Shown: positions 23,301-44,905 of the stretch, piece after piece
Layout: the number at the start of each line of letters is the position of its first letter
Position numbering within the stretch: position 1 is the stretch's first letter
From: Candidatus Nitronereus thalassa
Lineage (GTDB): Bacteria; Nitrospirota; Nitrospiria; Nitrospirales; UBA8639
Assembly (NCBI RefSeq): GCF_032191465.1
Contig: NZ_JAQOUE010000002.1
Location: 310,001 to 374,000, forward strand
Length of the DNA: 64,000 nucleotides
Direction: 5' to 3'
Position numbers and translations under genes: made by a program
The notes under the pieces: generated by a model
Database searches by the model: none
What the model was told of the DNA's origin: nothing
What the model saw: the letters and a program-made list of their open reading frames with translations, nothing else

Positions 23301-23903
23301 ATGGCCATTCGTTTGATATTTCTGTTGGCAATTTCTCTTGGATCCCTAAACCAAACTGCATGGAGTCAGACCGAAGAAGCCTGGTTCTCCTCCTTCGTCA
23401 CCATTTCTGACAATGATGTAGCGACCCTGACTGCCGACGTCATGTTAGCGGCTCCGCCTGAAACCGTCTATGCGGTGCTCTCGGATTACCCGAACTGGCC
23501 GGATCTATTTGCCCAACCGCCCACCATCAACACCATCCAGCGGAACAATAACCATGTCCGAGTCAGTATGACGTTCAAAGTGTCATTTCTACCAATCGGG
23601 TTACGTCTAGCAACCGATACTGAAGAAATTCCCACGACTCTATTAAAAACAACATTGATCGAAGGTGATTTCGAACAGTATGAGTGGATATGGACATTCC
23701 GCCCCTTACAAGATCCGCAGCACACGAAGGCTTCGGTTGTGGTCCATGTGCAGCCATCAGTATGGATTCCCCATTGGCTCTTGGAATGGGTCCTCACGTC
23801 GAGCTTCACCGAGCATCTTCATAAATTGCGAGAGGCAGTCCAAGTCCGCTATCGTGAACAGGGAGCCACCACGATCACCTCCGCACCTCCGAATACTCCA
23901 TGA
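23301..23903 (+). CDS. Exported SRPBCC/START-like protein
   Basis: 200 residues with GAGGAAG 7 nt before the ATG. The signal peptide (MAIRLIFLLAISLGSLNQTAWS) is followed by a polyketide-cyclase/COQ10-like SRPBCC pattern: ADVMLAAPPETVYAVLSDYPNWPDLF at about 45-70, then beta strands and a C-terminal helix (LTSSFTEHLHKLREAVQVRY). The fold binds lipids or other hydrophobic ligands; the ligand is unknown and the export is notable. The stop overlaps the next start by 4 nt (ATGA), so it is translationally coupled to the radical SAM gene. Confidence 0.75.
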   Translation: MAIRLIFLLAISLGSLNQTAWSQTEEAWFSSFVTISDNDVATLTADVMLAAPPETVYAVLSDYPNWPDLFAQPPTINTIQRNNNHVRVSMTFKVSFLPIGLRLATDTEEIPTTLLKTTLIEGDFEQYEWIWTFRPLQDPQHTKASVVVHVQPSVWIPHWLLEWVLTSSFTEHLHKLREAVQVRYREQGATTITSAPPNTP

Positions 23904-24916
23904 AACTTATTTCCAATCCACAAAATCCATTTCTTTCAGATCAACGAGAGCTCCTCGAGCCCGCCCCTCAAGTCGACACGGACGTCTATGAAGAAGAAAC
24001 GGGATCCATCCTCAGCCGCAATGACAGTCCAGACCTGCCTTTCCGGTGGAGTGTGAATCCCTATCGGGGCTGCTTTCACGCCTGCGCCTATTGCTATGCG
24101 CGGCCCAGCCATGAGTATTGGGGCTTTGGCGCCGGGACAGACTTTGAATCCAAACTCATCGTAAAACCCAATGCAGCCGAAGCCCTACGAACAGCATTCA
24201 TGAAACCCTCGTGGAAAGGCGAACTTGTTGTATTTTCTGGAAATACCGATTGCTACCAGCCGCTGGAAGCGATTCATGAACTGACGCGTTCTTGCCTCGG
24301 CGTCTGTGCAGAGTTCCGGAATCCGGTGACCATCATAACCAAGTCTGCACTGATTCAACGGGACCTTGATATTCTCAAGACCCTGAATGAGCAAGCCTGG
24401 GTGCGCGTCTACTTCAGCATCCCCTTTGCCGAGAACGACATCGCGCGAAAAGTGGAACCTCAGACGCCATCGATTACCAAACGCTTTGAGGCGATGACAC
24501 ACCTTGCGCAAGCTGGCATCTCCACGCATGTCTTTATCGCACCGGTAATCCCAGGTCTAAATGACCATGACATTCCCAGCATTCTTCGCCGCGCAAAAGA
24601 GGCCGGAGCCAAAGACGCATCCTATATTCTCTTGCGATTAAATGGGAACGTCGAAATGGTTTTTCTTGAACGTATGGCCCAGGCCTTTCCCGATCGAATC
24701 AAAAAAATCATAAACAGATTAAAAGAGGTCAGAGGCGGAACCTTGACCGAGAAAAAATTTTTCAAACGCCATCAGGGACAAGGTTCTACTTGGAATGCCA
24801 TCCAACAGTTGTTCGATACAGCCTATCGCAAGGCTGGGTTTCCACTTGAGCCCGACCAGCCCATTCCCCACACCTTCCAGCGCCCAGGACATCCACAGCA
24901 ACAATCGCTGTTCTAG
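23900..24916 (+). CDS. PA0069-type radical SAM protein
   Basis: 338 residues. The cluster motif CFHACAYCYARPSHEY gives Cys58, Cys62 and Cys65 (CxxxCxxC). The N-terminus has the family segment SILSRNDSPDLPFRWSVNPYRGC, and further on are VFSGNTDCYQPLE and HVFIAPVIPGLND. This group (PA0069/Rv2578c, near the spore photoproduct lyase branch) is widespread but its reaction is not known. It overlaps the exported SRPBCC gene, which may be chance or a shared lipid-linked function. Confidence 0.88.
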   Translation: MKLISNPQNPFLSDQRELLEPAPQVDTDVYEEETGSILSRNDSPDLPFRWSVNPYRGCFHACAYCYARPSHEYWGFGAGTDFESKLIVKPNAAEALRTAFMKPSWKGELVVFSGNTDCYQPLEAIHELTRSCLGVCAEFRNPVTIITKSALIQRDLDILKTLNEQAWVRVYFSIPFAENDIARKVEPQTPSITKRFEAMTHLAQAGISTHVFIAPVIPGLNDHDIPSILRRAKEAGAKDASYILLRLNGNVEMVFLERMAQAFPDRIKKIINRLKEVRGGTLTEKKFFKRHQGQGSTWNAIQQLFDTAYRKAGFPLEPDQPIPHTFQRPGHPQQQSLF

Positions 24917-25068
24917 GAATCTTCCTATTCTCATTCCCTTACCGTTCTTAGTTACACCTTGTCGAATCTCTGGTGAACCATTATTCTGCTTCAGCGGTTG
25001 GCATAGGAGGGGTTGAACGTTACAATCGTCTTAACCGGACCAAATCTAGAGAACGGAAGGATTCGTTG

Positions 25069-26289
25069 ATGGCAATCAAGCAATGGATTGAGGCCTTGAG
25101 CCTCTGTGGGCTGTTGACCTTCGGACTCACCGCCTGCGAGGAAGCTAAGACCCCGTGGGACCTGCATAAAGATGCTGGAGAACTACGGATGCAGCAAGGC
25201 CGATTCCAGGAAGCAGAAGACGAGTTAAAGGCCGCACTTCAAGAGGCTGAGAAATTTGGCGAACAAGACAGCCGATTACCGCAAACCCTCACGAAGCTCG
25301 CGGTTCTTTACGACGTGCAAGGCGACTATGACAAAGCCGAGCCCCTTCTTCGCCGAGCGGTTGATCTACACCGTAAAAATTTGAAGGCCAACGATCCGGA
25401 ACTCGCAATCAGTTTGAGCAACCTGGGCGCACTTTACCATGCTCAAAAACAATACGACAAAGCCGAACCGTTGTTTTTGGAAGCCTTGGGCGTTCGGGAA
25501 GGAGCGCTAGGCAATGATCATCTCGATGTCGTGTTGGATCTCAAAAATTTGGCTGGAGTCCATGCCGCCCGACAACAGTACGCTCAAGCCGAGCCCTTCC
25601 TGGTTCGCGCCTTAGCCATTACGGAAAAAAATGTGGGACCGGATGATCCGATACTGGTGGAGCACCTCAACAACCTCGCGTTATTGTATCGAGCGCAACA
25701 ACGATACGACCAAGCCCTGCCACTTCTTCAACGGGCCATTAGCATTAATGAAAAGGCATTTGGGATGGAAAGCCCTGGGTTGATCGGCAGTCTTAATAAT
25801 TTGGCCCTGATTCATATCACGCAAGAAGCCTTCCCCAAAGCAGAAATCTTGCTCAAACGCGTCGTCAGCATCACGGAATTATCGTTCGGCCCCGACAATC
25901 CACGACTCGCGCCAAGCCTCACAAATTTGGCGGAACTATATCGCAACATGAGCCAGTTCGATAAGGCCATTAGCCTCCTCGAACGTGCGCTTAAAATAAA
26001 CGAAGAAAAATTTGGACCCGATGACGCCAAGGTCGCCAATCTGTTAAATAATTTGGCCCTTCTGTATTTTAATCAGGAACAATACGACAAAGCCGAGCCT
26101 TTGATGAAACGTGCTTTAGCAATCAATAAAAAAACAATGGGCGAAGAGCATCCGACCGTGGCACGAACCCTTAAAAACTACGCGGCCCTCCTTCGAAAAA
26201 CACAGCGTGCTGCCGAAGCGGATAACCTTGAGGCCCAAGCGGAAGGCATCCTCAAAAACAGGAGCAGCGCCAGGAATCGTGATCTCTAA
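25069..26289 (+). CDS. TPR lipoprotein, kinesin-light-chain type
   Basis: 406 residues from the ATG at 25069 with GGAAGG 8 nt upstream; the frame extends back to 24973 without support. Lipobox LTAC near residue 22 marks a lipoprotein. The rest is about eight TPR units with the long 42-residue period of kinesin-light-chain repeats, each containing a variant of LNNLALLYRAQQRYDQALPLLQRALSI. These repeats bind protein partners. Its location would be the inner face of the outer membrane or the periplasmic face of the inner membrane. No interaction partner is suggested by context. Confidence 0.88.
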   Translation: MAIKQWIEALSLCGLLTFGLTACEEAKTPWDLHKDAGELRMQQGRFQEAEDELKAALQEAEKFGEQDSRLPQTLTKLAVLYDVQGDYDKAEPLLRRAVDLHRKNLKANDPELAISLSNLGALYHAQKQYDKAEPLFLEALGVREGALGNDHLDVVLDLKNLAGVHAARQQYAQAEPFLVRALAITEKNVGPDDPILVEHLNNLALLYRAQQRYDQALPLLQRAISINEKAFGMESPGLIGSLNNLALIHITQEAFPKAEILLKRVVSITELSFGPDNPRLAPSLTNLAELYRNMSQFDKAISLLERALKINEEKFGPDDAKVANLLNNLALLYFNQEQYDKAEPLMKRALAINKKTMGEEHPTVARTLKNYAALLRKTQRAAEADNLEAQAEGILKNRSSARNRDL

Positions 26290-26442: not shown

Positions 26443-26826
26443 ATGGAGAATGTCTTACGAATCATCATCATCTTTGTCTGGTGTATGTTTTTCGGATTTT
26501 TTTCCGTCATGGGATATCTTGACGAGACCATGACGTCCCAAAGAAAATCCCTGATTTTGGCGGGTTTAGTAGCCGTGCTGGCTATCTACCTAGCGTTTGA
26601 ATGGTTTACACGAACTGAGGAGAAGGGCGCTCCTGAAGAAATACTTCAAGCGGGCAAGAATGAACCGCTCTTGGAAAAAGATGGTCCTGGTACGCAATTG
26701 GACGAACGCGTACTCAGACGGTTACATCTTTACACCAAAGATAATGAAAAGGAATTAAAAGCTGCCCTCTCATCCCAACCCGCCAAGAAACAAAAAACGC
26801 CTGCTCTTTCTGGAACTAAAAAGTAA
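26443..26826 (+). CDS. Small inner-membrane protein, unknown
   Basis: 127 residues. Two hydrophobic helices are visible (about 5-24, IIIIFVWCMFFGFFSVMGYL; about 37-53, LILAGLVAVLAIYLAFEW), followed by a charged soluble tail rich in Glu and Lys ending in AKKQKTPALSGTKK. No family recognised. It is the only gene between the TPR lipoprotein and the converging SoxD-like gene, whose stop is 35 nt away. Confidence 0.6.
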   Translation: MENVLRIIIIFVWCMFFGFFSVMGYLDETMTSQRKSLILAGLVAVLAIYLAFEWFTRTEEKGAPEEILQAGKNEPLLEKDGPGTQLDERVLRRLHLYTKDNEKELKAALSSQPAKKQKTPALSGTKK

Positions 26827-26860: not shown

Positions 26861-28879
26861 CTAGTTTGTGGAAGCCGCCAACCCTTTGAGCGATAAGGCA
26901 CGCTTGGGTGCGCGAGCCAACGCAAGATTGAACTGCGCCTTGGCTGAATTCACTCTTCCAGTTTCCAACAAGACTTCTCCATATAACTCATGCGCCGGCT
27001 TCACAGGAAACGGTGGGCCGTAATCAAACGGAATGGTATCCGCCAACTGCGTGGCTTCTTTTAATAACGCCAATCCTTGTTTGACATTGCCTTCAACTAC
27101 AAGAAGCAGGGCTGAGAGCTGTTTCTTCATTACCCGAGCCGACAAAATTTGCCCAGAGGAATGAGTGGCTTCTGCCGAATTAATCAACTCACGAAGTTTG
27201 CCCAATGCCTGACGAGCTTGATCTAAAGCTTGGGTCTTGACCCCACTCAACCCAATCGCAAACATTTCGTTGGCAACCCCAGAAAATCGAAGCCCAGAAC
27301 GATCTTCATCCAACCCGCGAACATCCCATTGCTCGCTCTCAACAATGAAGGTTCCTCGCATCGCCGCCAGAGAGCCTTTGATATACGGGGAACCGTCCTG
27401 TGCCGCATCTTCGTGGACCATATCTAACAATTGCTTGGCCTCTTCAATGCGGCCTTGTTGTAAGTAGGCATACATCAGCCAATACAAGGTATGATAGGAA
27501 CGCTCACTTACACCCAAGCCTTTTTCCTTCCGACGCGCTTCGCTTGCCTTCCAACTGATTTCGTTGGCCTTGACCACGTCATCCCACATGCCTAAGGCCA
27601 TAAAAATATGTGACGGCATATGCTGGGCATGTGGAGCAGCCGGTGCAATCTGCGAATAGGTCCTGGCTGCACGAAGCCCCAAGAAAGCATGCTCCGGATC
27701 ATCATACGCATGGATCATGTAATGAACCGCGCCAGGATGCCGTGGATTCTGTCGAAACACCGACTCGGCAATCTCCGCAGCCTGAAGATAAACTTTGGAG
27801 TCACGTTCCCCTTGCGCCGTCCCCAATAAGGCCAGCGCATAAAAGGTCGCGGCTTCATGATCCTTTGGATATCGCTCACTCAGAATCCTCATTCGCTCAG
27901 CATAGGCATAGTCTCTTGCCACCTTATCGCCTTCACCATACAAGGCATGGATGGCATGTAAGTAACCTTTCTCACGTTCTGTGGGTGCCTTGGCCATTCG
28001 CTCTTCCTCGGTAGACCCCAATCGAGCAAGCACCTGTCTGGCGGCATCATAATATTGCTCATCCCAAAGGGGATGATTCAACGTCATCGCCTCACCCCAA
28101 TAGGCCATGGCAAAATCTTGATCAATCTGTTGCGCCTTTTGAAACGCCGCCTGCGCGTCATCATATTCGAAGCTATGGAGTAACAGAACGCCTCGAAGAA
28201 ATTGTTGCTGAGCCTTACGAGATCCAGATATCGGAAAATCTATTTCGCCCAGAGTAGGAGCGGGAGTTGATTTGGAAGGAGGCTTCGGTGGATTCACATC
28301 AGGCCGAGGGTCAGGTACAAACCCATCGCGATGCAGCATGCGCACTTTCGGCAATGTTTTTTGATTCATCACGACATCTGGCCCAATCAAGCCATTGCGA
28401 AACAGCAACCAGGCCACCACAGCATAGACTTGGCTGGGATTCAACGATTGCGGTGAGGTAAAGGGCATGGCCCGTTGAATATAATCGAACACCGTAGTGG
28501 CATACGGCCAATGACTGCCAATGGTTTTCACCGGATGATCCGTGGCTAGCGTCCCTTGACCGCCCACCAGTTTAGGCATAGGCCCTTCCACACCAGTAGC
28601 CCCATGGCAACTCGCACATTGCTCAGCATACACCTTCGCGCCTTCATCCACTGCCCCACTTCCTACAGGCAACCCCGCACCATCCGGGGCCACATCAATA
28701 TCCCATGCACGTACTTCTTTATCTGTCGCAACCCGCCCCAGATGAAAGCTACCGTGGCCAGTTTCACCAAAACTCACCATCGAAGACATCCCAAGAACCA
28801 AAAGTGAAAAAAGAAAAAGACTGTGATAAATGCAAGACATCACAGGTCTATCGGTTAAAAAATTTTTGAAAGCCTTCAC
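26861..28879 (-). CDS. Cytochrome c (SoxD/SorB-like) fused to a TPR domain
   Basis: 672 residues from a GTG with AGGA about 8 nt upstream. A signal-like hydrophobic segment (YHSLFLFSLLVLGMSSMVSF) precedes a mono-haem cytochrome c domain at about 45-175 with CASCH and downstream Met candidates, including AMPF. The WDIDVAPDGAGLPVGSG lead and NPSQVYAVVAWLLF resemble the haem subunits of sulfite or sulfane dehydrogenases. A Pro-rich linker (about 195-215) leads to a long TPR region (about 225-665) with HAQHMPSHIFMALGMW. The SoxC-like partner is upstream by 74 nt on the same strand. Fusion of such a haem subunit with a 450-residue TPR domain is unusual. Confidence 0.85.
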   Translation of the reverse strand: MKAFKNFLTDRPVMSCIYHSLFLFSLLVLGMSSMVSFGETGHGSFHLGRVATDKEVRAWDIDVAPDGAGLPVGSGAVDEGAKVYAEQCASCHGATGVEGPMPKLVGGQGTLATDHPVKTIGSHWPYATTVFDYIQRAMPFTSPQSLNPSQVYAVVAWLLFRNGLIGPDVVMNQKTLPKVRMLHRDGFVPDPRPDVNPPKPPSKSTPAPTLGEIDFPISGSRKAQQQFLRGVLLLHSFEYDDAQAAFQKAQQIDQDFAMAYWGEAMTLNHPLWDEQYYDAARQVLARLGSTEEERMAKAPTEREKGYLHAIHALYGEGDKVARDYAYAERMRILSERYPKDHEAATFYALALLGTAQGERDSKVYLQAAEIAESVFRQNPRHPGAVHYMIHAYDDPEHAFLGLRAARTYSQIAPAAPHAQHMPSHIFMALGMWDDVVKANEISWKASEARRKEKGLGVSERSYHTLYWLMYAYLQQGRIEEAKQLLDMVHEDAAQDGSPYIKGSLAAMRGTFIVESEQWDVRGLDEDRSGLRFSGVANEMFAIGLSGVKTQALDQARQALGKLRELINSAEATHSSGQILSARVMKKQLSALLLVVEGNVKQGLALLKEATQLADTIPFDYGPPFPVKPAHELYGEVLLETGRVNSAKAQFNLALARAPKRALSLKGLAASTN

Positions 28880-28953
28880 AGTTATTTTCCTTGTGGCTCC
28901 GTTATCTCACAACACCCAAGCTCTGGAAACATAAGATGTTGTGGAAATGAACT

Positions 28954-30225
28954 TCACGCTTGGACATTATGCACATGCCCATCTTTATCTATTTTCCAAC
29001 TTTGGATGGCGTTGTTATGGTAATAAGAGTTAGTTCCGCGAACGTTGATGAGTTGTTTCAATGTAGGTTGTAGGTAACCGGTTTCATCCATGCAACGGCT
29101 TTGAAGAATGGCTTCTTGCCCGTTCCATTCCCAGGCAAAGCGAAATCTAGTGTGACATTTGGGTAATATAGGTGTCTGCAATTCAGCGGCATTCCAGGTT
29201 TTTCCTCCATCAAGACTCACCTCTACTTTTGTAATCACACCTCGACCACTCCAGGCAAGACCTCGGATTTCGGTGAACCCTTTTTCCGTTAATTGTTGAC
29301 CACCGGACGGATTCGTAATCACGGACTTGGCTTCCATGTCGAATGTGAATTGACGTGCGGTGCCATCAGGCATCAAATCCGTATATTTCGAAGTTTCTTC
29401 TCGCGTCATCATGGGAGAGTCCACCAGCTTTAATCGCCGCAACCACTTAATGCAGGTATTGCCTTCCCACCCGGGCAACAATAAGCGAAGGGGATAACCT
29501 TGTTCCGGACGAATCGGTTCGCCGTTTTGCGCGTAGCACAACAAGGCTTCGTCCATGACCCGGTCCAAGGGCACACTTCGCGTCATGGCTGCGGCATCGC
29601 TGCCTTCGGCAAGCATCCAAGTGGCTTGGGGGTTGAGATGTGCTGCTTGCAACACCGTGGAAAGCCGAACTCCCGTCCATTCACTGGTACTCGTGAGCCC
29701 GTGAATTTCCTGAACCGTTGTTCCTTTTGGCCCTTTCCATTCTTTACCACTGTTTCCTGAGCATTCCACAAAGGCGATCCGTGAAGTGGCGGGAAAGCGC
29801 TTCAACTCATCCATCGTAAAGATCATGGGGTGTTCCACCAGCCCATGCACTAATAAACGATGACGGCTGGGGTCGATGAGGGGCACGCCATTATGATGGC
29901 GTTCAAAATGGAGGGCAGAGGGAGTAATGATACCATACAAGTCTTGCAATGGCGTGCGCGACCGTTGAGGTTTCGTCAATCGTTGGGATTGCTCGAATCG
30001 GGACCTTGTCCCATATTCCGAGGCAAGCGCTCCAGGAACTTTTGTAGGATCCACAGGCACTTCTTGGGTGGAACCGATCCGTGGGGTCAACAGCAAACTC
30101 GCAGCAGTCAAACCTAGAAGCGAACTGGCCCCCAACAAAAATGCGCGCCGATTCGGCGGGTCTTTGGGACGGCTTGTACCCTCCGGACGGTCATCGGCAA
30201 CCATAGGAAGAGATTGTTCGCTCAT
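28954..30225 (-). CDS. Tat-exported SoxC-like molybdopterin oxidoreductase
   Basis: 423 residues from the ATG at 30225, chosen because AGGAGGG lies 6 nt upstream; the frame runs on to 30270. A twin-arginine signal is present (NRRAFLLGASSLLGLTAAS). The sulfite-oxidase fold follows: RHHNGVPLIDPSRHRLLVHGLV, the molybdenum-ligand Cys in FVECSGN, HGLTSTSEWTGV, GYPLRLLLPGWEG and a C-terminal dimerisation domain with VEVSLDGGKTW. It resembles SoxC of sulfane dehydrogenase. With the haem protein downstream it would form a periplasmic two-subunit enzyme passing electrons from sulfite-, sulfane-like or another oxyanion substrate to haem. The substrate is inferred. Confidence 0.9.
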   Translation of the reverse strand: MSEQSLPMVADDRPEGTSRPKDPPNRRAFLLGASSLLGLTAASLLLTPRIGSTQEVPVDPTKVPGALASEYGTRSRFEQSQRLTKPQRSRTPLQDLYGIITPSALHFERHHNGVPLIDPSRHRLLVHGLVEHPMIFTMDELKRFPATSRIAFVECSGNSGKEWKGPKGTTVQEIHGLTSTSEWTGVRLSTVLQAAHLNPQATWMLAEGSDAAAMTRSVPLDRVMDEALLCYAQNGEPIRPEQGYPLRLLLPGWEGNTCIKWLRRLKLVDSPMMTREETSKYTDLMPDGTARQFTFDMEAKSVITNPSGGQQLTEKGFTEIRGLAWSGRGVITKVEVSLDGGKTWNAAELQTPILPKCHTRFRFAWEWNGQEAILQSRCMDETGYLQPTLKQLINVRGTNSYYHNNAIQSWKIDKDGHVHNVQA

Positions 30226-30422
30226 GACATTCCCTCCTGAATGGCGAAAGCCTTCGGCTCGGCCAACCATTGATCATTCTATCGGGTCTTCACCCTCCGG
30301 ACAAAGGAAAAGAACTAAAAACTACAGAGCTGGAGGCTTAAGAAAAACCTTGGACGGGACGACCAAGATAAGCGAGAGGTTATCATAGGCCAGGCATTCA
30401 AGGAAAAGGCACGACACCAACT

Positions 30423-31007
30423 ATGCCACATCATTCATTTATACTCGTCGTTATCCTTTCCATTATCTCCCTCACAGGGTGTGGCTCACACATTGACTGG
30501 AAACCTGATACCCAAGAAATTCATTCCTGCGTCCCTGACCATCCTCCCACATGGGAAGAATTCACAAAGTCCTATGGAAACTATACCAATTCCGCGCAGA
30601 CCGCGGTTGCGATCACCTTGGCTCAGATGGAACCACCAATATTCCAAGCACGATTCGATTCAGATCGGTCCTGGGTCCAACCCCACATTGTAGAAGCCTG
30701 GCATCCCTATAAAAAGAGTATTGCCCAACGTTTGTTGCGACATGAACAACTACATTTTGCCATCAGTTGTTTGCTAGTTCGACAGGCAAACATGTCCATA
30801 AAACCAGGAGACAACCCTCACCAGATGCTGCAGTTTGTTCGCATGACCTCCAAACGGCTGAATCAACTCTACGATCAGGCCACCAACCACGGAACCATCC
30901 AAGACAAACAAGAAGAATGGGAACGCGACGTGGAACAGCAACTCGAAGAAGTCACAAGGATGCGATCGCACCATTCAACTCGTACGGCATTTGACATCCA
31001 GCCTTAA
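30423..31007 (+). CDS. DUF922-like lipoprotein, putative zinc protease
   Basis: 194 residues. Lipobox SLTGCG near residue 20. The core holds RLLRHEQLHFAISCLLVRQAN (about 102-122), an HExxH zinc site as in DUF922 proteins, which are predicted secreted metal-dependent proteases. WHPYKKSIAQ just before it is also family-like. The C-terminal part (LNQLYDQATNHG) contains the third-ligand region typical of the family. It is read divergently from the SoxC-like gene; no functional link is evident. Confidence 0.75.
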   Translation: MPHHSFILVVILSIISLTGCGSHIDWKPDTQEIHSCVPDHPPTWEEFTKSYGNYTNSAQTAVAITLAQMEPPIFQARFDSDRSWVQPHIVEAWHPYKKSIAQRLLRHEQLHFAISCLLVRQANMSIKPGDNPHQMLQFVRMTSKRLNQLYDQATNHGTIQDKQEEWERDVEQQLEEVTRMRSHHSTRTAFDIQP

Positions 31008-36028: not shown

Positions 36029-37681
36029 TCAAAATCGTGAACTCGTTAATGTCACATCCGCATCGGCCCAAGCCTTTTGGAATTGGGCTTCGACAAGTTG
36101 CATCTCTTGAGTCTGGCCTTGGGCTTTAAGGCTTTCCTTGAGTCCAAACAGCGACCATCCGCTTTGCGGGTGATACTCCAGATCCTGCCGGTAAACTTGC
36201 TCAGCCTCTTTCGCTCTTCCTGCTTCCAGCAAGACGGCTCCCAAGACCTGGCGCGGGGGCAAATACCAGTCCTTGGGCTCGGTATAGGTCAACCCATCTT
36301 CCAAGGCTATCGCATGTTGTAAATGAGCCACCGCTTTATCTGTGTGCTGCTGGGCGACAGCTAACTCACCGGCGAGAATTTCTGTGCCGATCTGAAGAAG
36401 CAGGGAAACCGAATTGAGTCCCAAAATCGTTAAATCGGCAATTGCCGGATCATTCGCGATACGTTGCAACGCGGCCAACTCTTGTTGGGCGTATTCCATG
36501 TTTCCTTTTCGAAGGTACGCTAACCCTCTGGCATAGTGCCACACCCCTTTGGGATACAGAAACTCTGGAGCTGGCTCACGGAAAATACTCTGCCATTCGC
36601 CAAATAAGGCTTTGGTATATAACGGAATGATAGAAAAGTGCTGAAGAGTGGCGCCTATTCCAGGATTGGTCAACATCGTTTGATCCACATGGTGAGCCGT
36701 ATCCATGGCCGATTCTAATGAAACTTTCTTCATTCCCAGTTTGGTCGCGGCAGCCCACAGAAAATGATGGTTATGCGGAACATAGGCTAATGGATAGAGA
36801 CCCTCCGTGTGCGAATGCGATAAATACCCGGCATCCGCCTTCGTCGCATGCTGATTGGCTTGAATCGCATCACGATATCGACCGACGCGTATGTAAATAT
36901 GCCCAGGCATGTGGACCAGATGTCCGGCTCCAGGGACCAGCGTGCGCAATCGATCTGCGCTCGGAACCCCTCGTTCAGGTTCCGGTGACGCTTCGACGGC
37001 ATGAATATACAGGTGATTCGCCAATGGATGATTGGGATCCAAGCGTAGCGTATTCTCAAGCACATTTAAGATTTCAGGAGTCCAGTCATGAGGCTTTCCA
37101 GTCTTGTCCCAAAAATTCCATGGATGCAGATCCATCAAGGATTCGGCAAAAAGACTCGCAACCGTGGAATCGTGAGGGTACGCAGCCTGAACCTCTCGCA
37201 TGGCCGCAGCATAACTTTGATCTAAAGCCCCACGATCGGCCTGTGCATCAGATGCATAACGATGTCCCAAGGCATTGATTAACGCTTGCTCTTTGGTAGA
37301 AGCAGACTTGGCGTGTTGTTTGGCATGACTGATGGCTTCATAGGCGATAGGGATCGCGGCATCGGCCATCGGCGCATTAATATTGGGGCCCAATACCAAG
37401 GCTTGCCCCCAATAACACATGGAACAGTTTGGGTCGAGCCGAGCGGCTTCCACAAACGAACGATGGGCCTCGGCATGATTGAAGGCATAGGCAAGAACCA
37501 TCCCCTGATCGAAATAATTCTGGGCCTGTGACGAATTTGTGGTGATGGGGTAGTGGAAATCTCCCAAACCCTCAAAAAGCGGTACGTGGGAAGAGGAGGC
37601 CTGCTCAGGAGACACAGTCGTACACCCTGACAACACCAACACTAAGGCAATAATTCCTAAGACATACCTGTTCCGATTCAT
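36029..37681 (-). CDS. TPR lipoprotein with HMPGHI motif
   Basis: 550 residues. Lipobox LVLSGC near residue 19. The body is TPR-like from about 50 onward (YFDQGMVLAYAFNHAEAHRSFVEAARLDPNC). It shares a characteristic HMPGHIYIRVGRYRDAI with the HMPSHIFMALGMWDDVV of the cytochrome-fused TPR region at 26861-28879, as well as the CYWGQAL/AYWGEAM element, so the two are distant paralogues in that domain. The conserved His residues suggest a ligand- or metal-binding role rather than plain scaffolding. A 29-codon membrane ORF lies just upstream on the same strand. Confidence 0.85.
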   Translation of the reverse strand: MNRNRYVLGIIALVLVLSGCTTVSPEQASSSHVPLFEGLGDFHYPITTNSSQAQNYFDQGMVLAYAFNHAEAHRSFVEAARLDPNCSMCYWGQALVLGPNINAPMADAAIPIAYEAISHAKQHAKSASTKEQALINALGHRYASDAQADRGALDQSYAAAMREVQAAYPHDSTVASLFAESLMDLHPWNFWDKTGKPHDWTPEILNVLENTLRLDPNHPLANHLYIHAVEASPEPERGVPSADRLRTLVPGAGHLVHMPGHIYIRVGRYRDAIQANQHATKADAGYLSHSHTEGLYPLAYVPHNHHFLWAAATKLGMKKVSLESAMDTAHHVDQTMLTNPGIGATLQHFSIIPLYTKALFGEWQSIFREPAPEFLYPKGVWHYARGLAYLRKGNMEYAQQELAALQRIANDPAIADLTILGLNSVSLLLQIGTEILAGELAVAQQHTDKAVAHLQHAIALEDGLTYTEPKDWYLPPRQVLGAVLLEAGRAKEAEQVYRQDLEYHPQSGWSLFGLKESLKAQGQTQEMQLVEAQFQKAWADADVTLTSSRF

Positions 37682-39708: not shown

Positions 39709-40710
39709 ATGAAGTCCTGGTCACGTCGGAACTTGCTCAAAACAGCAAGCAGTCTCGTGTTGGCATCGGCATTGCCGACTCCCAGCATTTCCCTGGCTGG
39801 GATGTGGAGTCAGTTGTTTGGGGGATTTGGGCGCGAGGTTTCCCCGATTACTCCCAATGACGAATTCTATATCACCTCGTACCGCTCCCCGCCGGATATA
39901 CGGCTTTACGATTGGGCATTGACGCTTAAAGGTTTGGTCAAATCACCCATGACTCTCACCTACTCAGAACTTCTTGCCCGACCAACAGTTTCAGAAATTG
40001 TCACGTTAGAATGTGTAGGAAATGCGGTTGGGGATGAGAGTATTGGCACCGCTGAATGGAACGGTGTCTCCTTGAAGACCTTGCTCAATGAAACAGGCAT
40101 TGAGTCCAATGCCTACGATGTCGTCCTTCGCGCCGCGGATGGATATTCCGATAGCATCCCCATTGAACGGGCGATGCATGGCGATGTCTTGGTCGCACAC
40201 CAAATGAATGGCGTGACACTCCCAACTGGACATGGTTATCCTGCCCGCCTCATTGTCCCTGGCGTTTACGGCATGAAGCATGTGCAGTGGCTGACGGAAA
40301 TCGAACTCGTTCCTCGAGATTATCAAGGCTATTACCAAAAGCAGGGTTGGACAGATGATGCGACTGTGCAGACGAAGACCTGGATCACCGATCCTCAAGA
40401 TTATGACGAATTACCGAGTAAGGATTTTCTGATAAAAGGGTTTGCCTTTGCGGGCATACGAGGCATTCGGTCCGTAGAAATCAGTCTTAACGGCGGGGAT
40501 ACCTGGCATCCCGCACATTTAAAGCCAGCACAGTCTCCTTATTCGTGGGTATTTTGGGATTATTTATGGAAGGAACCCAGGCCTGGAGTGTATGTCCTCC
40601 TTGCACGGGCAACCGATGGTACGGGTATGATGCAATCATTTCTTCATCAAAAGCCCTTTCCTAAGGGAGCCACCGGTATTCAAGAATTGTTTGTGAAAGT
40701 GTCTGAATAA
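39709..40710 (+). CDS. Tat-exported sulfite-oxidase-family molybdoenzyme
   Basis: 333 residues. Twin-arginine signal SRRNLLKTASSLVLASALPTP. The molybdopterin domain has TPNDEFYITSYRSPP, the molybdenum-ligand Cys in TLECVGNAVG, TAEWNGVSLKTLL, GYPARLIVPGVYGMKHVQWL and a C-terminal domain with VEISLNGGDTW. It resembles the stand-alone YedY/sulfite-oxidase-like branch and differs from the SoxC-like protein at 28954. A DUF547 lipoprotein gene starts 6 nt after the stop, so it heads the run of genes that leads into the MNIO cluster. Confidence 0.9.
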   Translation: MKSWSRRNLLKTASSLVLASALPTPSISLAGMWSQLFGGFGREVSPITPNDEFYITSYRSPPDIRLYDWALTLKGLVKSPMTLTYSELLARPTVSEIVTLECVGNAVGDESIGTAEWNGVSLKTLLNETGIESNAYDVVLRAADGYSDSIPIERAMHGDVLVAHQMNGVTLPTGHGYPARLIVPGVYGMKHVQWLTEIELVPRDYQGYYQKQGWTDDATVQTKTWITDPQDYDELPSKDFLIKGFAFAGIRGIRSVEISLNGGDTWHPAHLKPAQSPYSWVFWDYLWKEPRPGVYVLLARATDGTGMMQSFLHQKPFPKGATGIQELFVKVSE

Positions 40711-41585: not shown

Positions 41586-42449
41586 ATGGACACACCCAGG
41601 ACCAATCCTCAGGTTGGCGTCGGCCTTCGGCCCACCCATTATCCCTTTCTTCAAGAAAAGCCCGAAGTGCGCGTGCAATGGTTCGAGGCCATCAGCGAAA
41701 ACTATATGGACTCTGAAGGCCGTCCCATTGACATGCTGGAACTCGTTCGCGCGGATTACCCTGTGGCGCTTCACGGGGTTTCCCTTTCGATTGTCTCGGC
41801 GGAGGGAATAAGGCACGATTACCTTGCAAAACTAAAAATTTTGATCGATCGCATCAACCCCTTTATTGTTTCGGACCATCTCTGTTGGACCGGCCACCAG
41901 GCAGCCAACCTGCATGACTTGCTTCCCTTTCCGTTCACCGAAGATGCGCTTCGAGTTATTCAAGACAATGTTGATCATGTCCAAAATTATTTGAAACGAC
42001 ATATCTTGCTGGAAAATGTTTCCACCTATCTCTCGTTTCCTCAATCACAACATACAGAATGGGAGTTTCTCACCATTGTGTCCAACACCACGGGCTGCAA
42101 ATTATTGCTCGACGTGAATAATCTCTATGTAAACTCCCAAAACCATCACTTTGATCCGCTTAGGTTTGTGGATGCCATCCCCACCGACCTGATTGGACAA
42201 ATTCATTTGGCGGGATACACGGATATGGGAACCTACTTATTTGATACCCATTCCAACCCCGTATCCACCGAGGTTTGGAATTTATTTTCGCATGTCATTG
42301 CCCGTGCTCCGGATGTCCCGGTGCTCATTGAATGGGACGATGACATTCCGGAATTCCCTCGACTCGAAGAGGAAGCCCTCAAAGCCGCTGCCATTTGGGA
42401 AAATCACCATGGACCAGTTGACGCTCAAGCACTTTCAACAATTATTTAG
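41586..42449 (+). CDS. MNIO (DUF692/BufB-like) multinuclear iron enzyme
   Basis: 287 residues. The metal-binding pattern of the MbnB/BufB family is complete: His63 in ALHGVSLS, His98 in SDHLCW, Glu143 in LENVSTY, Asp176 in LLDVNNLYVN, His207 in IHLAGY, Asp220 and His222 in FDTHSNPVS, and Glu249 in IEWDDDIPEFP. Known relatives bind two or three iron ions and oxidise cysteine or other side chains in ribosomally made peptides, with a DUF2063 partner presenting the substrate. The DUF2063 gene overlaps the 3' end by 41 nt. No bufferin precursor (DUF2282) or other Cys-rich peptide is seen. Confidence 0.93.
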   Translation: MDTPRTNPQVGVGLRPTHYPFLQEKPEVRVQWFEAISENYMDSEGRPIDMLELVRADYPVALHGVSLSIVSAEGIRHDYLAKLKILIDRINPFIVSDHLCWTGHQAANLHDLLPFPFTEDALRVIQDNVDHVQNYLKRHILLENVSTYLSFPQSQHTEWEFLTIVSNTTGCKLLLDVNNLYVNSQNHHFDPLRFVDAIPTDLIGQIHLAGYTDMGTYLFDTHSNPVSTEVWNLFSHVIARAPDVPVLIEWDDDIPEFPRLEEEALKAAAIWENHHGPVDAQALSTII

Positions 42450-43212
42450 TCAGGCCACGCTCCCCAGCTTGGAACCTGAGCCCCCCCCAACGATCGGTGA
42501 TCTCATCGTGCCCGGAGGGGCACTGACCGCTTCCGACGCTCTCAACGTGTATGGCACTGGAGTGGTCGTCAGGCTCACCGAAGCTCTGGGTGAAACGTTT
42601 GAGGCGGTCTGGTGGGTTTGCGGAGACGATGACTTTTTTCAACTGGCAAAATACTACATTCAGACGCATCCCTCCTCGACCTACAATCTTTCACACTATG
42701 GAGAAACATTTTCTGAAATGCTGGATCGCTTGGGCCCATTTCCGGATTTGCCCTTTCTCGGTGACCTCGCTCGATATGAATGGCTGTTTAAATGCCTGTT
42801 TCACACCAAACAACACGACTCCGTGGCTCAAGATGCCCTGCAATCATTAACCGAAGAAGCCACTATTCGATTTCATTTTGGAAGCGCGGTCACACTCTTT
42901 ACCTCCCGTTATGCCATTTACGACCTATGGAAACTCCGCGGCGCAGAGCATGACGGCACTCCACCGACTGCATGGGATCGTCCGCAATCCCTAGTGCTGT
43001 ATAAAAAGGACAAACAAATTTTTATACGCGAAGTGGACGATGCAGAGTATGGTATTCTTTACGCCTTACATCACGGAGCTTCTCTGGACGCGGCGCTCGC
43101 CTCCGCAGGCGATGCACATCCCGAGTTTGATCAGCAGCGGGTTTCCGATCTGTTTCAAATGATGTTTCATACCGGAATCATTCACCACATCGATATTCAG
43201 CCATCACCCTGA
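42409..43212 (+). CDS. DUF2063 (BufC/HvfC-like) MNIO partner protein
   Basis: 267 residues from the ATG at 42409, which overlaps the MNIO gene by 41 nt. The DUF2063 domain runs over about 1-110 (LTLKHFQQLFSQATL, GALTASDALNVYGTGVVVRLTEALGETFEAVWWVCGDDDFFQLAKYYI) and is followed by a C-terminal half with LPFLGDLARYEWL and the winged-helix-like end typical of HvfC/BufC. In bufferin and methanobactin systems this partner holds the precursor. A run of eight C (42481-42488) at the Pro-Pro-Pro stretch could slip. Confidence 0.88.
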   Translation: MDQLTLKHFQQLFSQATLPSLEPEPPPTIGDLIVPGGALTASDALNVYGTGVVVRLTEALGETFEAVWWVCGDDDFFQLAKYYIQTHPSSTYNLSHYGETFSEMLDRLGPFPDLPFLGDLARYEWLFKCLFHTKQHDSVAQDALQSLTEEATIRFHFGSAVTLFTSRYAIYDLWKLRGAEHDGTPPTAWDRPQSLVLYKKDKQIFIREVDDAEYGILYALHHGASLDAALASAGDAHPEFDQQRVSDLFQMMFHTGIIHHIDIQPSP

Positions 43213-43230
43213 CACGCAACTGGTCCACCC

Positions 43231-44244
43231 ATGCACATGACCACCGACACCCTCCCTGTCCTTCGCAACCTCATCACAAGAAAACCACTGTTGGCTATTT
43301 TTGAAGTTTGTCTGCGTTGCAACTCCGCCTGTGGATATTGCGATCTTCCCCTAAATGTGGGTCGGTATGAAATGTCGCGAGAAGAGATTCGCAAAGCCTT
43401 TCAACACCTCTATGACCACGGCCTGCGGTTTTTGTTTATTCAAGGTGGGGAGCCTTTAGTGCGCCGTGATCTGCCGGAGATCTTAGAAGACCTATACGCG
43501 ATCGGGTTTCATCTCACGCTCATTACCAATGGAACGAAATTGACGAAGCCCCTCGTGGATCGCTTCCGGCCATTAAACGTGAATATTTCTGTCAGCCTCG
43601 ACACCCTCGACCAAGAACGCTATCACCACATTCGAGGCCGAGACCAATTGCCTGACGTCCTTCGAGGCATCGACTTGCTCCAGGACTATCCACATCCGAA
43701 ATTTCTCACATGCATCGTGAGTGAACCCAATCGACACGATGTCCTCGACGTCGCTCGATTTGCCAGAGCCCGCGGGTTCATCCCTGTGGTCGGTGCCTAT
43801 CACTGGAACGTCGAACGGTATGGGAAAGTGGATATGACCTTGCAGTATGAACGGGCCATGGCCAAACATGTTTTTGAGCAGCTTCTTGAATCAAATGTAG
43901 TGCCCGCCGGGTATTTTCGTCGATACCTTCATGATAATGTCAATTGGCTAAATGGCACTTCACTTGCCCCTTGCGATGCAGGCAAATACAGCATCGCCAT
44001 TGATGCCTCCGGTAATGTAGCACCATGCTTGGCCTTACACTCCGCTGGAAATCTCCGGGAGCAATCCCTGCCTGAGATCCTTGAGAAAATGGATGCCAAG
44101 GCGATCCGTGTCTGCTCCGACCAATCCTCGTGCAATATGATGTGCAGCCGGGTCATTGGATCCTTACTGCGCCATCCGATTGATGCCATACGCACTCCAC
44201 AAACCGTGGCTCCCATAAGGAACATGTATGCTCGTCAAGCCTAA
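43231..44244 (+). CDS. Radical SAM protein with SPASM-like C-terminus
   Basis: 337 residues. The cluster motif CNSACGYC gives Cys30, Cys34 and Cys37; FIQGGEPLVRRDLPEIL and LITNGTKLTKPLVDRF complete the SAM barrel. The C-terminal part has PCDAGKYSIAIDASGNVAPCLALHSAGNL and a cluster CSDQSSCNMMC, an arrangement of Cys like the auxiliary iron-sulfur sites of SPASM proteins (PqqE, AlbA). Such enzymes usually modify peptides. It starts 19 nt after the DUF2063 gene and overlaps the ferritin-like gene by 17 nt. Combination with an MNIO enzyme in one operon is the point of interest. Confidence 0.9.
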   Translation: MHMTTDTLPVLRNLITRKPLLAIFEVCLRCNSACGYCDLPLNVGRYEMSREEIRKAFQHLYDHGLRFLFIQGGEPLVRRDLPEILEDLYAIGFHLTLITNGTKLTKPLVDRFRPLNVNISVSLDTLDQERYHHIRGRDQLPDVLRGIDLLQDYPHPKFLTCIVSEPNRHDVLDVARFARARGFIPVVGAYHWNVERYGKVDMTLQYERAMAKHVFEQLLESNVVPAGYFRRYLHDNVNWLNGTSLAPCDAGKYSIAIDASGNVAPCLALHSAGNLREQSLPEILEKMDAKAIRVCSDQSSCNMMCSRVIGSLLRHPIDAIRTPQTVAPIRNMYARQA

Positions 44245-44905
44245 TGAACGTCTGCCGTTGGCGGCACTCCTGCAATTTCTGGAATTAGGCGAACGACTCG
44301 CCCATTCCTGCGCTACGACTCAAGCCGCACTCGCACCGACGAGCAAGATACGCGATTTCCTGAAAAGGCAGGCGAGACAGGAAGCCATGCACGCCACCAT
44401 CTTTCGCACGACACGAAAGTGGATCGCCCCACGACAGCCCGACGGCTCCAACACGCTCAAGCCATTCGAGGACTACCGTTCGTTACTGTGTGATTCGCTT
44501 GACCGCAAGCAATTTCTTGAATCCATTTTAGCCGAGCAGGTCATCCTGGAAAGTTTGGGAGAAGCCATCCTGCATAAAATAGAAATTGGCCTTCAAAAAC
44601 GGCATGCCCCCTTTCAACGACTGCGCCGCATGTTGCTAGCTCAGGAAGCCGCCCACCACGGCTTTGGGAACCACGTCCTCCAACGGGCCGTTGCGGACCA
44701 CGAGATCACCAAAGAACAACTGCAAGAACAGGCCATCCCCTATCTCTTGCTGTCCCAATCCATGATCATGGAATTACACGCGCTGTTCCAGGAGATTGAC
44801 GAAGACCCTCAAGAGTTTCTCGACCTTCAACAGCAACACCTTCCTCCATGGTTGGTCACCAGGAATACTAAACACGATGATTTACATAATCATTCCAGCC
44901 TATAA
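44228..44905 (+). CDS. Ferritin-like di-iron protein
   Basis: 225 residues, almost all helical. The metal pattern of a four-helix-bundle di-iron site is visible: Glu22 (LELGERLAH), Glu52-x-x-His55 (QEAMHATIF), Glu103 or Glu108 (ILAEQVILESLGEAIL) and Glu140-x-x-His143 (AQEAAHHGFG). That is the spacing of ferritin-like oxygenases and oxidases rather than storage ferritins. No known family name can be given. It overlaps the radical SAM gene by 17 nt and the glycosyltransferase by 29 nt, so all three are made together. Confidence 0.75.
   Translation: MLVKPNERLPLAALLQFLELGERLAHSCATTQAALAPTSKIRDFLKRQARQEAMHATIFRTTRKWIAPRQPDGSNTLKPFEDYRSLLCDSLDRKQFLESILAEQVILESLGEAILHKIEIGLQKRHAPFQRLRRMLLAQEAAHHGFGNHVLQRAVADHEITKEQLQEQAIPYLLLSQSMIMELHALFQEIDEDPQEFLDLQQQHLPPWLVTRNTKHDDLHNHSSL

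Follow-up and report, generated by a model that had tools for sequence, protein, structure and literature searches.

Organization of the locus

The window, by which we mean the whole 64,000-nucleotide stretch of Candidatus Nitronereus thalassa DNA that was analysed, carries a soxC-type gene and, 74-113 bases downstream on the same strand, a gene whose product joins a haem c domain to a TPR superhelix (Table 1). The molybdoenzyme scores above the cut-off of the NCBIfam SoxC family TIGR04555 (569.8 bits, cut-off 420) and below that of the SorA family NF052245 (145.1 bits, cut-off 600). Its top solved relative is chain A of 2xts (E 4e-109), the SoxCD sulfane dehydrogenase of Paracoccus pantotrophus; residues 104-437 align to SoxC of that structure. 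A twin-arginine signal (RRAF) is present at residue 41, and alignment with Cys185 of chicken sulfite oxidase identifies Cys170 as the molybdenum ligand. In the same alignment, the arginine that follows CAGN in the chicken enzyme corresponds to serine in the window protein and to glycine in 2xts.

Table 1. Positions of the described features in the window
Feature	Position	Strand	Remarks
soxC-type molybdoenzyme	28954..30270	-	438 aa; alternative start at 30225 possible
Fused haem-TPR protein	26861..28879	-	one frame, 672 aa; GTG start at 28879, ATG at 28840 possible
SoxD haem-1 domain, residues 46-198	28286..28744	-	phmmer match to 2xts_B, E 2.4e-40
Haem c motif CASCH, residues 88-92	28604..28618	-	sole C-x-x-C-H in 672 aa
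Met138 of RAMPF (residues 136-140)	28466..28468	-	aligned to RSMPF in 2xts_B
Pro-rich linker, residues 199-208	28256..28285	-	about 10 residues
TPR superhelix, residues 209-671	26867..28255	-	member of the seven-histidine TPR family
Stretch with H381, H386, H390, H417, H420, H424 and H463	27491..27739	-	invariant histidines
TPR_12 lipoprotein	24973-26289	+	convergent to fused gene
Small membrane protein	26443-26826	+	convergent to fused gene
Lipoprotein-like TPR paralogue	36029-37681	-	550 aa
Second sulfite-oxidase-superfamily protein	39709-40710	+	333 aa
Run of DUF692-type, DUF2063-like and radical SAM proteins	41586-44905	+	resemblance by eye

No stop or frame change separates the haem and TPR domains of the window gene. 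Met138 is the probable second axial haem ligand, as suggested by its alignment. The second haem c domain of canonical SoxD is absent from the fused protein, and the TPR superhelix occupies its position. Pfam families TPR_19, TPR_2 and TPR_14 score above cut-off from residue 226 onward, and their best stretches mostly miss the stretch of invariant histidines. The window pair is a SoxC-type enzyme with its haem c partner. Both proteins had been recognised as such in the earlier note, and both assignments hold (TIGR04555 score and 2xts_A match for the molybdoenzyme, 2xts_B match for its haem partner), as does the TPR extension after a Pro-rich linker, put there at 450 residues and here at about 465.

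Elsewhere in the window, the second protein of the sulfite oxidase superfamily falls below the cut-off of all NCBIfam families that it matched. The run of proteins that resemble, by eye, a DUF692-type, a DUF2063-like and a radical SAM protein is perhaps a peptide-modification cluster.

Distribution of the fusion

Of 48 genomes of the family, 11 contain a full-length match to the haem-TPR protein: all three of the window's genus and eight of the 14 of its sister genus. Ten of the eleven have an intact frame, whereas in G325, one of the eight sister-genus matches, the TPR part is interrupted by an in-frame stop. Five other sister-genus genomes encode the haem protein without TPR and one (G326) gave no match at all. 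In G333, soxD is followed only by a decayed TPR remnant of about 60 matching residues. Among the matches listed from 295 genomes spread over the phylum, full-length ones are confined to the same two genera. The best 80 TPR loci of genome contigs include the fused form only in G187 and G065 (L038 and L039) and a split form in G242 (L040), though fusions beyond these loci may be missed. Fused proteins of the two genera share 59-75% identity over their full length.

The fusion is real and clade-specific. A sequencing artefact between the domains, which the earlier note had named as a finding that would undo its reading, is rejected as the source of the fusion, the intact fused frame being present in ten assemblies.

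Similar pairs of soxC and soxD occur elsewhere. A SoxD-like match is present in 42 plasmid records, 30 of them listed; in the four regions opened, soxC is accompanied by a cytochrome c that stands alone (175-207 aa), and no TPR is annotated. Ten further regions were fetched (L130-L139). Seven of them (L130-L133, L135, L136 and L138) hold soxC-soxD without TPR nearby, L134 has a TPR gene of 29% identity 2.4 kb from soxC-soxD, and L139 (genome G290) one of 27% identity about 2 kb from soxC. For those opened, the notion that such fusions are common in SoxD, which likewise would have told against the earlier note, is rejected, since all four plasmid pairs and seven further clusters are unfused. 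Its statement that the architecture is not that of a standard SoxD or SorB stands, none of the other SoxD relatives opened being fused. In the viral contigs searched, no SoxC relative was found.

Origin and loss of the TPR domain

In G206 and G242, which belong to a neighbouring genus, soxC, a single-haem soxD and a separate TPR gene (about 500 residues) stand in a row. The TPR gene of G206 has its own signal-like N-terminus and overlaps soxD by 4 bases. In the phylogenetic tree of SoxC, twelve genes from fused or TPR-less loci group together (support 81/71) and the split pair (98/94) is their sister, all fourteen being joined with support 97/98. The split order is found in the sister of the fused group, and the fusion arose from such an operon.

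TPR-less genomes are dispersed within the fused group. The haem protein of L026 and L028 stops at the linker, and next to it lies the same flanking gene. The history is thus an operon, then a fusion, then at least two losses of TPR; low support at several forks leaves the exact number uncertain. Repeated loss or breakage implies that the TPR part is accessory and dispensable, with no catalytic necessity.

In G332, an unfused TPR gene shares the downstream neighbours of the window gene, that is the small membrane protein, a TPR_12-like lipoprotein and a gene resembling that at 23900-24916; its soxC-soxD lies on another contig, beside a relative of window gene 30423-31007. In both genera, several genomes carry relatives of the lipoprotein and membrane protein genes beside the fused gene; such relatives are also found in G332.

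A widespread family of TPR proteins

Relatives of the TPR half form a family found across many phyla, mostly as exported, stand-alone proteins. The family is very widespread, has no name in the libraries searched and is not generic TPR. No match for the TPR part was obtained in PHROGs. The lipoprotein-like paralogue of the window is itself a member (23-27% identity, seven of seven histidines). Members at L148:3953-5641, L150:3953-5656 and L153:3986-5626 have no evident signal peptide and carry a cysteine-containing tail (CFCR).

Thirty genomes with close TPR relatives were compared for SoxC. A SoxC-superfamily match was present in 24, at 7e-92 or better in nine, and no SoxC-type match was detected in the other six. 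In the Acidobacteria genome G296, a TPR gene of 54% identity overlaps the first half of soxC in a different gene order (L041); the remaining soxC and soxD are on a separate contig (L137), and the break in soxC may be an assembly fault.

Ten plasmid regions with TPR members were opened, nine of them annotated and one (Sinorhizobium) not. Metal-related genes lie near three of the nine annotated members. In Acinetobacter johnsonii, a cation diffusion facilitator gene is found 40 bases upstream of the TPR gene; on the downstream side are ArsR/SmtB, a heavy-metal P-type ATPase and cueR. In Rhodococcus, two ArsR-type regulators are encoded within about 3.5 kb of the TPR gene, and the Ilyobacter gene is followed by multicopper oxidase and cupredoxin genes. 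In Pseudohalocynthiibacter, a molybdopterin oxidoreductase is encoded directly downstream of the TPR gene; the other five annotated regions show no such neighbours. No common theme was apparent by eye around stand-alone TPR genes at 74 genome loci; the survey took in same-strand candidate frames, 46 of them downstream and 44 upstream, and frame picking was crude in GC-rich DNA.

No description of a TPR-cytochrome or histidine-TPR protein was found in the papers searched, which include few from subscription journals. The word tetratricopeptide does not occur in the main text of PMC10579370 or PMC12342949.

Seven invariant histidines

The seven histidines listed in Table 1 are identical in all aligned members of three overlapping sets: 16 of 16 in A2, 62 of 62 in A3 and 15 of 15 in A4. 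A2 comprises the fused rows, whole-genome matches and the window paralogue, collected without histidine-bearing patterns. A3 consists of 60 of the best 80 loci plus two window rows; the 20 omitted loci were near-duplicates or were left out for brevity, and of two loci flagged for broken frames one (L040) entered through its TPR stretch. Since the 80 loci were picked by patterns that include H420, H424 and W261, conservation of these residues in A3 is partly due to selection. No such pattern was used to collect the nine plasmid rows of A4. A4 takes in the Acinetobacter, Rhodococcus and Ilyobacter members, and identity to the window protein falls as low as 20% in it. Seven of its 22 invariant positions are histidines, compared with 16 histidines in 468 positions (hypergeometric P 1.6e-6, a descriptive figure as the rows are related).

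An AlphaFold2 model displays residues from about 210 to 671 as an all-helical superhelix (pLDDT mostly 95-99); the haem part is modelled poorly because only three alignment rows cover it. Six of the histidines are placed on helices 382-392, 416-428 (kinked) and 462-474, and H381 immediately precedes the first of these. Given their spacings (i/i+4 and i/i+3/i+7), each set would lie on one side of its helix. The three helices alternate with others in the model, in the manner of A-helices of successive repeats. In TPRs, A-helices line the groove.

By VIA-align, the TPR model matches Rap (Z 17.8, rmsd 4.9, 297 aligned), TTC7B (Z 17.7, rmsd 5.4, 347 aligned) and LGN (Z 17.3, rmsd 5.2, 294 aligned). 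As far as the model goes, its fold neighbours are ordinary TPR superhelices only. No metal-binding TPR is listed among the fold-search matches, which in itself proves nothing.

Possible function of the fused protein

To us it appears about evenly probable that the window encodes a periplasmic sulfite dehydrogenase of SoxC and single-haem SoxD, furnished with an accessory TPR module that would bind a metal or small ligand. SoxC, exported by the Tat system, would use its molybdenum to oxidise sulfite or another small oxyanion of sulfur, and the electron would pass to the haem c of the SoxD haem-1 domain, as homology with 2xts suggests. The TPR groove with its seven histidines probably binds a metal or small ligand, which might either pass electrons on to the haem or bring a substrate or acceptor to it. 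In favour of this reading stand, among other things, the metal-related neighbours of the distant Acinetobacter member and the overlap of TPR gene and soxC in G296. The module itself would derive from a separate exported gene adjoining soxD. Several points temper this proposal. TPR is missing or broken in genomes of the sister genus and is therefore inessential, and most soxC-soxD pairs examined elsewhere are devoid of it. Stand-alone TPR genes share no theme in their neighbourhood, only three of nine annotated plasmid members having metal-related genes nearby. Sulfur compounds besides sulfite may also be substrates of SoxC-type enzymes.

A scaffold without ligand, docking SoxC-SoxD to an acceptor cytochrome, an oxidase or an envelope complex in line with the proposal of the earlier note, would suit an ordinary TPR superhelix whose near folds include peptide-binding Rap and LGN. 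Yet strict conservation of seven histidines at 20-25% identity would be unexpected in a bare scaffold, and the family's stand-alone members have varied neighbours, six of 30 genomes lacking any detected SoxC-type match. We regard plain docking as rather unlikely. The conserved histidines point to binding of a metal or small ligand instead, and it is their conservation that makes a metal site conceivable.

The halves might also be functionally uncoupled, joined by a neutral fusion of neighbouring genes that one clade tolerates. Such an event is easily pictured from the adjacent, overlapping genes of the sister group, and repeated loss or decay of TPR would be in keeping with it. However, two genera have retained the fusion at the identity given above, with all seven histidines in eight of eight aligned proteins, and TPR and soxC are adjacent, in another order, in an Acidobacteria genome. 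Neutral fusion is accordingly held to be improbable.

A bolder version of ligand binding is a multinuclear metal centre made of histidines only, with six or seven of them on the three groove helices of the model. Dinuclear type-3 copper sites have a similar number of ligands. Such a centre within a TPR superhelix would define a new class of metalloproteins, acting as electron-transfer or catalytic partner of haem c; we consider it a long shot.

A sulfane dehydrogenase of the Sox thiosulfate pathway is very improbable, for despite the SoxC family score no SoxB match was found in the organism's own genome, and SoxY and SoxA are likewise without match, though there the controls were equally silent. 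The SoxB result is informative, the genome being 98.7% complete and the search having matched, below cut-off, in ten of 14 control genomes, which indicates that it works. Among the other sox genes to which the earlier note had directed attention, SoxB is without a candidate. Without SoxB, full Sox thiosulfate oxidation is unlikely, and without a SoxYZ-bound substrate oxidation of sulfite becomes the likelier role.

In our opinion, a TPR partner with a strictly kept set of histidines is a more interesting finding than the fusion as such. Through the fusion, a defined redox enzyme is linked to a very widespread, uncharacterised family of TPR proteins, whose function thereby becomes testable. If the histidines do hold metal, a large number of metalloproteins would be hidden under the labels "hypothetical" and "tetratricopeptide". 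Among the nitrite-oxidising Nitrospirales searched, enzymes of the SoxC/SoxD type are common, yet papers give the sulfite enzymes of these organisms no phenotype.

Comparison with known systems

Stand-alone pairs of soxC and a single-haem cytochrome c, annotated as "sulfite dehydrogenase", represent the same gene pair as in the window. Their haem subunit is similar in size to the TPR-less forms that end at the linker (L026 and L028). Unlike the window, the four such regions opened have neither a TPR domain nor an adjacent TPR gene annotated.

With SoxCD of 2xts, the window proteins share the SoxC chain and the SoxD haem-1 domain, which align over most of their length. The systems differ in that the second SoxD haem domain is missing and a TPR superhelix is found instead, and in that the genome has no detected SoxB.

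SorAB sulfite dehydrogenase belongs to the same superfamily as the window enzyme, but the latter stays far from the SorA cut-off (see above). On another contig of the genome, a SorA-like gene (L001:1069-2319, reverse strand, G000:C1; 589.3 bits, cut-off 600) is located between two multihaem cytochrome c genes. It may be the sorAB that papers count for this lineage. According to PMC12342949, sorAB is mostly restricted to Nitrospirales lineage IV, and PMC10579370 links no phenotype to sorAB of these bacteria. Judging from PMC12342949, the family of the window's organism is probably UBA8639, which corresponds to lineage IV.

Finally, the TPR half has its predicted fold in common with superhelix proteins such as Rap, OGT and LGN, from which it differs in sequence, identity to the model being 14% at most.
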